Made by a program: the position numbers and the translations under genes. The notes under the pieces are model-generated. The model did no database searches. It was not told where the DNA came from and saw nothing but the letters and a program-made list of their open reading frames with translations. A DNA stretch of 64,000 nt, from assembly GCA_026988575.1 (NCBI GenBank), contig JALSKZ010000053.1, positions 1 to 64,000 on the forward strand. Direction: 5' to 3'. Below, one piece after another: positions 50,817-54,152 of this stretch (its first letter is position 1; each line of letters opens with the position of its first letter). This DNA comes from Thermodesulfobacteriales bacterium. Its GTDB lineage: Bacteria > Desulfobacterota > Thermodesulfobacteria > Thermodesulfobacteriales > Thermodesulfatatoraceae.

Positions 50817-52316
50817 CTAACCCCTTTGTCCTTCCGGACGGAGATGGGGAAACAGGATCACCTCTCTAATAGAAGGGGCATCAGTAAATAACATGACTAA
50901 TCGATCAATACCTATACCTTCTCCTGCTGCCGGAGGCATACCGTATTCCAGGGCCCTTATAAAATCTTCGTCTATTTCCGGATGGATTTCAGGGTCATCG
51001 GCCAATCGTCGACGAATTTGTTCTTCAAAACGGGCCCTTTGATCCCGCGGATCATTGAGTTCGGAAAAGGCGTTTGCTATTTCGCGCCCTGCGATAAAGA
51101 GTTCGAACCGGTCGGCTACAGAAGGATCTTCTTCATTGCGTCGCGCCAGGGGAGAGATATCTACCGGAAAGGCCACCACAAAGGTGGGTTGAATGAGTTG
51201 TGGTTCCACCAAGGCATCAAATAGTTTGGCCCATAGTTTGCCCAGTATCTTTTCTTTTTCGTCTACCTTGATATTGTGCTCTTTGGCCCAAGATAGGGTC
51301 TTTTCTCTGCTCTCAAGGACCTCAGGGGGTACTTTCCCTATCTGAATCAGGGCTTCTTTAAACCCAATGCGTTTCCACGGCGGAGTCAAATCTATCTTGT
51401 GTCCTTGATAGGTAATACAGGTGTGGCCGGTGATTTCCCGCGCCAGGGAAGAAAAGATCTCTTCTGTGCGCACCATAAGATCTTCATAAGTGGCGTAGGC
51501 CTCATAGAATTCAAGCATGGTAAATTCTGGGTTGTGCTGGACGGATATACCTTCGTTACGGAAATTTCGATTCAGCTCAAATACACGTTCAAAACCCCCT
51601 ACCAAAAGGCGTTTTAGATATAGTTCCGGAGCAATACGGAGATAGAGCTCGCGTTCTAAGGCGTGGTGATAGGTCTTAAAGGGACGAGCGGTGGCTCCTC
51701 CCGGGATGGGCTGCATCATGGGCGTTTCTACCTCTAGAAAGCCCTGGCTCTGGAAATATTCCCTCAAAAATTGGACAATTTGGGAGCGAGTACGAAATAT
51801 TTCCCGGACACGCTGGTTCATAATGAGATCTAAATAGCGACGTCGATAGCGCAACTCTACGTCTTGAAGACCATGATATTTTTCCGGAAGGGGTCTAAAG
51901 GCCTTGGTGACCAGCACCAACTTGTGGGCCAATATGGTCAATTCACCGGTTTTGGTACGAAATAGGGGGCCCTCCACCCCTATTATGTCGCCTAAATCAA
52001 TATATTTTTTGAATAATTTGAAATTTTCCGGGCCTATTTCGTCTCTTTTAACAAATATCTGTATTTGATCCGTTTCATCCTGGATATGCATGAAGACAGC
52101 CTTGCCAAAGTCGCGTCGAGACATTATGCGCCCGGCTAGACAAAAACTATCCTTAATGGACATGAGCTTTTCGTTGTCGTATTCGGCAAAAATTTCTTTA
52201 AGAGGCCCGGCGTGATCTTTGGGCCTAAATCGGTTAGGAAAGAGACTAACCCCTAACGATTCCAGCTCTTCGGCCTTTTGTTTCCGTACTTTTAAAACCG
52301 CGCTTTCTTCGTTCAC
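50817..52316 (-). CDS. lysS: Lysyl-tRNA synthetase, class II
   Basis: The 499-residue class II enzyme has an N-terminal OB-fold anticodon-binding domain (FCLAGRIMSRRDFGKAVFMH), motif 1 (FQSQGFLEVETPMMQPIPGGA), motif 2 (FRNEGISVQHNPEFTMLEFYEAY) and motif 3 (GIGIDRLVMLFTDAPSIREV). It charges tRNA-Lys. It lies 12 bases upstream of the LolC/E gene. Confidence 0.97.
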   Translation of the reverse strand: MNEESAVLKVRKQKAEELESLGVSLFPNRFRPKDHAGPLKEIFAEYDNEKLMSIKDSFCLAGRIMSRRDFGKAVFMHIQDETDQIQIFVKRDEIGPENFKLFKKYIDLGDIIGVEGPLFRTKTGELTILAHKLVLVTKAFRPLPEKYHGLQDVELRYRRRYLDLIMNQRVREIFRTRSQIVQFLREYFQSQGFLEVETPMMQPIPGGATARPFKTYHHALERELYLRIAPELYLKRLLVGGFERVFELNRNFRNEGISVQHNPEFTMLEFYEAYATYEDLMVRTEEIFSSLAREITGHTCITYQGHKIDLTPPWKRIGFKEALIQIGKVPPEVLESREKTLSWAKEHNIKVDEKEKILGKLWAKLFDALVEPQLIQPTFVVAFPVDISPLARRNEEDPSVADRFELFIAGREIANAFSELNDPRDQRARFEEQIRRRLADDPEIHPEIDEDFIRALEYGMPPAAGEGIGIDRLVMLFTDAPSIREVILFPHLRPEGQRG

Positions 52317-52394: not shown

Positions 52395-52751
52395 TCAATT
52401 ACAGGGGCTCATATGCCTTTGTGGAGAAGAAACCTTCTCTAACATTATGTTTTCTACCGGTCCACCCCGATGTGGACCGGCCTCAAGGCACCATTTGTTA
52501 CCTTTTCCCTCAAAACACATAGAAATAAAGGCTGCCTGGTGAGTCCCTAAATCGACCTCTACCGGGAGCGAAGAGCCGGGCTTGATTTCCTTTCCCTCCG
52601 GGAAACGGATACTTACGCCTCACGGCTTATGTAATTCGGTCAACCTTACGGGATAAGAAGCAGGGTTGTAAACGTAAAATTTTGTCAAATAACCCCCAAA
52701 GCAATTGGCCACCCCAAAAAACAAAAAGAAGAAAAAGAGCACTCTTTTCAT
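52395..52751 (-). CDS. Candidate selenoprotein: small exported DUF1573-like protein with an in-frame TGA
   Basis: One uninterrupted frame of 119 codons runs from the ATG at 52751 to a TGA at 52395-52397, but codon 44 (52620-52622) is also TGA. The gene starts with GGAGTTTCTATG, nine bases after thrC, and has a signal-like N-terminus (VLFFFFLFFGVANC). The sequence continues in the same frame after codon 44: ELHKP-stop-GVSIRFPEGKEIKPGS-LPVEVDL. The pattern resembles DUF1573-type beta domains, where a Cys of a C-G pair sits at this position. A SECIS-like hairpin follows the TGA. Read through, it is 118 residues with Sec44. A nonsense-mutated pseudogene is the alternative. SelA/B/C genes are not in the window. 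Confidence 0.6.
52589..52608 (-). promoter_or_regulatory. SECIS-like hairpin downstream of the in-frame TGA
   Basis: On the minus strand CC-G-TTTCCC-GGA-GGGAAA-GG forms a stem of six pairs, one bulged G and two more pairs, with a GGA loop. The loop begins 21 bases after the TGA. Bacterial SECIS elements lie in this range and have a G among the first loop bases. This fits, but a hairpin of this size can occur by chance. Confidence 0.5.
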
Positions 52752-52760
52752 AGAAACTCC

Positions 52761-54152
52761 TTACGTCAAAGCATGTTGCGCCACAAAATCTTTGACTGGT
52801 TTGACCTCGGCAGGCAGGAGCTCAAAGCGTTGGGGTCTATTTTCCAACTCGGCCAGGGCTGCCGGACGCGGTGGGTCTATCCCCAGGGCCTTTTTTACGG
52901 CTTCGGGAAATTTGGCGGGATGGGCCGTGGCCAGACAGATCATGGGCAAGTGGTTCCGAAAGGCAAGCCCTGCCCTTACGCCTACAGCGGTATGGGGGTC
53001 TAAAATATAGCCAGTTTCCGCATAAAACTGTTTTATGGTAGCCAGGGTCTCCTCCTGGGATACAGAACGCGAATAGAAATCCTCTTGGACCTTTTGGGTT
53101 TCGGCCTTTTCAAAAGACAACTTTCCTTTGCGGGCAAACTGGACCATGGCCTCCTTTACCCTCATGGGGTCTTCATCATAAAGATAGTAGAGATAGCGTT
53201 CGAAGTTGCTGGCTATTTGGATGTCCATGGAGGGACTTATAGTGGACTTTACCTGGCCCAGAGAATAATCTCCCTGGTTGACGAAACGAGTCAAGATGTC
53301 GTTTTCGTTGGTGGCCAAGATAAGATGCTCAATACCCTTGCCTATCATCTTCTTGGCGATATAGCCGGCAAATATATCGCCAAAATTCCCCGTGGGGACA
53401 GAAAAGCGCACATATTCTATTCCTTCGGCCTCGGTCACGCGGAAGTAGGCCCAGATATAGTAGACCACCTGGGCTAATACACGGGCCCAGTTGATGGAAT
53501 TAATGGCCCCCAAGTGATATTTCCTTTTAAAGGTTAAATCTCCAAAAATTTCCTTTACAATGGCCTGGCAGTCGTCAAAGGTCCCTTTTACGGCCAGATT
53601 AAACACGTTGGGGTCTGTTACCGTGGTCATTTGTAGGGCCTGGACAGGTGAGACGCGCCCGTGTGGGTGCAAAATGAAGATGTTTATATTTTGGCGCCCT
53701 TTAACACCGTATATGGCCGCCGAACCCGTATCCCCAGAGGTGGCCCCTAAAATGTTCATTTTTAACCCTTGCTCCCTCAGGAGATACTCAAACAGGTTTC
53801 CGAGGAATTGAAGGGCCACGTCTTTAAAGGCCAATGTCGGGCCGTGGAAGAGCTCCAAGATCCAAACAGGGCCCTTTTTTACCACAGGACAGATATCTGG
53901 GTGATCAAAAGAGGCATAGGCCTTAAAAATAAGTTCTTTTAAGTGGGAACGGGGCAGGTCGTCGGCAAACAGGCTCAAGACCTCTAGGGCCAATTCAGGA
54001 TAAGAAAGGCCCCTCCAGCTTTTTAATTTTTTTTCTTCCACCACGGGAATACTTTCGGGCAGTATAAGCCCTCCGTCTTCGGCCAAGCCCATTAAAACAG
54101 TTTCTTTGAACGAAATGGGGTTTATTCCCCCCCGCGTGCTTATATAGCGCAT
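52761..54152 (-). CDS. thrC: Threonine synthase
   Basis: The 463-residue PLP enzyme starts MRYISTRGGINPISFKE. PLP lysine is in FHGPTLAFKDVALQFLGN, and the phosphate/PLP segment is LGATSGDTGSAAIYG. It converts O-phosphohomoserine to threonine. The candidate selenoprotein gene follows after nine bases, so they are co-transcribed. Confidence 0.95.
   Translation of the reverse strand: MRYISTRGGINPISFKETVLMGLAEDGGLILPESIPVVEEKKLKSWRGLSYPELALEVLSLFADDLPRSHLKELIFKAYASFDHPDICPVVKKGPVWILELFHGPTLAFKDVALQFLGNLFEYLLREQGLKMNILGATSGDTGSAAIYGVKGRQNINIFILHPHGRVSPVQALQMTTVTDPNVFNLAVKGTFDDCQAIVKEIFGDLTFKRKYHLGAINSINWARVLAQVVYYIWAYFRVTEAEGIEYVRFSVPTGNFGDIFAGYIAKKMIGKGIEHLILATNENDILTRFVNQGDYSLGQVKSTISPSMDIQIASNFERYLYYLYDEDPMRVKEAMVQFARKGKLSFEKAETQKVQEDFYSRSVSQEETLATIKQFYAETGYILDPHTAVGVRAGLAFRNHLPMICLATAHPAKFPEAVKKALGIDPPRPAALAELENRPQRFELLPAEVKPVKDFVAQHALT

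Follow-up and report, generated by a model that had tools for sequence, protein, structure and literature searches.

The locus and its gene

The window, a stretch of 64,000 nt of contig JALSKZ010000053.1 from a Thermodesulfobacteriales bacterium, carries on its minus strand, between the genes for threonine synthase and lysyl-tRNA synthetase, a short reading frame with one in-frame TGA (Table 1). The preliminary description had placed this frame correctly, with the TGA at codon 44 and a second stop at its end, leaving the strand unstated; a plus-strand reading of the same interval was dropped because it contains stops. Read through the TGA, the protein is MKRVLFFFFLFFGVANCFGGYLTKFYVYNPASYPVRLTELHKP-U-GVSIRFPEG...CFEGKGNKWC...SPCN-stop, with U for selenocysteine (Sec). 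An annotation based on ordinary stop codons would truncate it at codon 43. The ATG lies 9 nt past the thrC stop and a GGAG is found just before it, in agreement with the earlier proposal of an own Shine-Dalgarno sequence. This arrangement makes co-transcription of the gene with thrC probable. The signal-like N-terminus that had been noted before is also recognizable by eye, and by the same judgement an A-x-A cleavage-type site is clearer in most of the relatives than in the window copy.

Table 1. Features at the locus of the putative selenoprotein gene, in positions of the window
Feature	Position	Strand	Remarks
Putative selenoprotein gene, DUF1573-like Ig-type domain	52395..52751	minus	118 codons + TGA stop; dN well below dS either side of the TGA
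In-frame TGA, codon 44, very probably read as selenocysteine	52620..52622	minus	Same column in 8/8 homologues
Terminator TGA	52395..52397	minus	TAA/TAG terminators in relatives
Shine-Dalgarno sequence (GGAG)	52755..52760	minus	Between thrC stop and ATG
Signal-peptide-like N-terminus	52689..52751	minus	Judged by eye from the sequence
SECIS-like hairpin	52578..52618	minus	Upper stem 52605..52600 / 52596..52591; GGA loop 52599..52597; lower stem about 52618..52615 / 52581..52578
Threonine synthase gene thrC	52761..54152	minus	Directly upstream neighbour in all 8 copies
Lysyl-tRNA synthetase gene lysS	50817..52316	minus	Downstream in the window; not found adjacent to the gene in the other loci inspected

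Conservation of the in-frame UGA

A search for read-through homologues in 99 related genomes yielded copies in seven other genomes, all from the same family as the window genome (Thermodesulfatator and relatives), each with an in-frame TGA and with 30–38% identity to the window protein. The eight copies are from separate assemblies, including that of the isolate Thermodesulfatator autotrophicus S606. In 8/8 copies the TGA is at one column of the alignment, where no relative has a sense codon, and no further stop occurs before the terminator. The homologues have the pattern KP-U-xV...FPEG...CF...G...C in common, and the invariant residues include N29, P30, K42-P43-U44, F50-P-E-G53, C79-F80, G84 and C88. 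The residue following U varies among the copies (G, R, K, Q or P); therefore, it is the UGA itself which is kept. Read-through of the terminal TGA was set aside, since this codon is not conserved.

Past the in-frame TGA, dN is about 0.26–0.63 in divergent pairs, compared to a dS of about 2 or saturated. Before the TGA as well as after it, dN lies well below dS, which is near saturation in most pairs. These substitution rates indicate that purifying selection acts on the frame past the TGA in all eight copies. The preliminary description had named a nonsense mutation in a pseudogene as the alternative, and the interruption of the window frame by a TGA would agree with that. However, the TGA is shared at one column by 8/8 species, selection is purifying on both sides of it, the Shine-Dalgarno sequence and the frame are intact, and there is no decay past the TGA in the relatives. 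A decaying pseudogene would imply that the mutation arose eight times in parallel, or that an ancestral pseudogene was kept open under selection, and we reject this reading as extremely improbable. Hardly any more credit can be given to a UGA that acts as a true stop, followed by a separate or regulatory element as the conserved downstream part. An in-frame stop is indeed present in all copies, but no conserved start codon with a Shine-Dalgarno sequence is found past it, the gene's own frame is the only stop-free frame downstream in six of the eight copies, and the amino-acid conservation is continuous across the TGA.

In one pair of close copies (L007 and L008) dS is 0.49 before the TGA and 0.02 after it, as if the latter part were constrained at silent sites or had been exchanged recently.

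Furthermore, 84,980 species were scanned with a DNA pattern that was built from the residues flanking Sec and allowed any codon at the Sec position. Only five loci matched, all of them among the same TGA genes (Thermodesulfatator autotrophicus S606, a MAG of T. atlanticus and three further Thermodesulfobacteriota MAGs), and viral contigs gave zero matches. A search of 395 genomes of the phylum contributed nothing beyond two remote DUF1573 proteins, neither of which has a TGA. A Cys-containing orthologue is usual for a bacterial selenoprotein, but not required; here neither the 395 genomes nor the pattern scan yielded one, and the only proteins with Cys were remote DUF1573 proteins. One match, L014 in genome G010, lies in a NUDIX-like frame and was rejected as due to chance. 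Two genomes of the same family (G001 and G009) are without the gene, but since both are incomplete and also without thrC, its absence from them is uninformative.

A SECIS-like hairpin past the UGA

Inside the coding sequence past the UGA, the sequence TTTCCC-GGA-GGGAAA forms a predicted hairpin with a GGA loop, an upper stem of 6 bp and a distance of 20 nt from the UGA to the loop (-14.4 to -15.5 kcal/mol). The published bSECIS model (PMC13188914) sets four constraints for bacterial SECIS elements, and the window copy satisfies all of them. Over all eight copies, pairing in the upper stem reaches 100% of cells, one pair switching between U-A and C-G; with sliding stem partners 39–66% of cells pair, compared to 93%. 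Covariation is limited, as most stem positions are invariant. The codons beneath the hairpin, CCG-GAG-GGR, are nearly invariant, and CCG makes up only 16% of the Pro codons in the long ORFs of the window. That these codons are fixed across proteins with as little as 30–38% identity to the window protein lends independent support to the hairpin. Compared to synonymous recodings, single copies gave a mixed result, the hairpin being modestly more stable (z about -1 to -4), and the hairpin of one copy (L011) is weak. No SECIS family was matched in an Rfam search. Judged from the alignment, the hairpin is conserved and of the SECIS type.

Selenocysteine machinery and decoding of the UGA

All four genes selA, selB, selC and selD are present in the genome. 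The matches to selA (624.7 bits), selB (397.7) and selD (383.6) are over the cut-offs, and the tRNA-Sec encoded by selC has the anticodon UCA. The selD gene (L030) carries an in-frame TGA of its own in the context GUAAK, a site at which this enzyme is well known to contain Sec, and thus constitutes a second, independent selenoprotein gene in this genome. SelD, the selenophosphate synthetase, is an enzyme unrelated to the DUF1573-like protein, but the same machinery would likewise decode its UGA as Sec.

Another tRNA, such as a tRNA-Cys of the selC* type, might insert Cys (or Trp) at the UGA instead of Sec. A tRNA-Cys with the shape of a tRNA-Sec exists in the genome (L002), and some selC* tRNA-Cys elsewhere have the anticodon UCA (PMC7609411). 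The tRNA-Cys found here, however, should not read UGA because its anticodon is GCA, the UCA belonging to the tRNA-Sec; moreover, TGA is the ordinary stop of 5 of the 35 long ORFs in the window, and the SECIS-type hairpin past the UGA also speaks against such a decoding, which we consider very unlikely. Selenocysteine is strongly supported by the TGA shared in 8/8 copies, the hairpin and the Sec machinery, so that the candidate put forward in the preliminary description stands: on this comparative evidence, the UGA at codon 44 very probably encodes selenocysteine in a small protein with predicted export. SelB, loaded with Sec-tRNA-Sec and bound to the hairpin, would insert Sec at this codon.

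The tRNA-Cys mentioned above (L002:1500-1593; G000:C32:8187-8280) is the second one with anticodon GCA, 94 nt in length and with a long variable arm, and scores 61.7 bits to the tRNA-Sec family. It overlaps the end of an ORF resembling a 2-hydroxyglutaryl-CoA-dehydratase activator. It fits the selC* type of tRNA-Cys which has been reported from Thermodesulfobacteria (PMC7609411).

Relation to DUF1573 selenoproteins

The likeness to DUF1573 that had been proposed for this protein is supported, its membership in DUF1573 proper is not: the score to Pfam DUF1573 (PF07610) is 12.1 bits, below the gathering cut-off of 26.1. An hhalign comparison with DUF1573 gave a probability of 58% (E 1e-4, 45 columns), with the Sec aligned to the first Cys/Sec. 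In a mixed alignment Sec44 falls into the column of the Sec of the SUGC motif of the phylum's DUF1573 proteins. In these alignments the TGA takes the place of the first Cys of the CGC motif, as the earlier reading of a replaced Cys in a C-G step had it. The CGC/UGC motif itself is absent, the window protein having UGV and its relatives U[RKQP]V. No significant match was obtained in NCBIfam, including its selenoprotein models, for any of the eight members (best E 0.056, unrelated).

The preliminary description had known of no selenoprotein of this family, which does not hold. Two reviews (PMC9312934, PMC13188914) include DUF1573 selenoproteins with the motif UGC in their lists. Our comparison set for them were loci of the same phylum, in which an in-frame TGA is very common: among the about 150 PF07610 matches listed, 76 have one TGA each. 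Seven such genes (L072, L080, L085 and L090–L093) were inspected, and in 7/7 the TGA is the first position of U-G-C. DUF1573 selenoproteins therefore seem to be widespread in this phylum.

In kind, the protein thus appears to belong to the already known DUF1573 selenoproteins, by a remote link: it comes from the same phylum, has an Ig-like beta domain as they do and, in the alignment, carries its Sec in the column of their first Cys. In contrast to them, it is without the second Cys of UGC (UxV) and below the Pfam cut-off, its N-terminal part is shorter, it has the FPEG motif and the C79/C88 pair instead, it always adjoins thrC, and no Cys form was found. What is new, as far as these comparisons go, is a divergent, lineage-restricted subfamily which has lost the second Cys, has its own C79/C88 pair and exceeds the cut-off of neither a Pfam nor an NCBIfam model. 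In the open-licence papers that were searched, no description of it was found. Probably, this is an undescribed and apparently Sec-only family, confined to the Thermodesulfatator lineage, with a fold that goes back to DUF1573 and a cross-strand Cys pair as the partner of Sec in place of the usual neighbouring Cys. The known selenoproteins thereby gain a well-supported subfamily, one that is present in cultured thermophiles. That no Cys form was found, together with the frequent TGA in the phylum's DUF1573 genes, offers a comparative handle on the role of Sec in an uncharacterised domain.

Predicted structure and possible function

The structure model is an all-beta domain in which Sec44 lies between strands 35–41 and 47–49. 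C79, on strand 76–82, and C88, on strand 85–91, belong to a tight hairpin and are in register to face each other. Searches of the PDB by sequence and by fold gave nothing significant. Judged by the conserved residues and this model (mean pLDDT 77.5, no significant fold match), an extracytoplasmic selenol/thiol redox role is the most likely function, with about an even chance of being the right one. The protein would be exported and fold as a beta-sandwich, with Sec44 in the loop that follows its second strand; Sec44 would then be the attacking residue, and C79 and C88, opposed on the beta-hairpin, the resolving pair. As the main alternative, Sec and the two Cys may bind a soft metal.

Genomic neighbourhood in other genomes

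In the rest of the order, no homologue adjoining thrC was found. In the genome that consists of a single 2.32-Mb contig, genes which by eye resemble dsrA and dsrB immediately precede thrC and the selenoprotein gene (L031:8705-11298), an arrangement that is not seen in the window.
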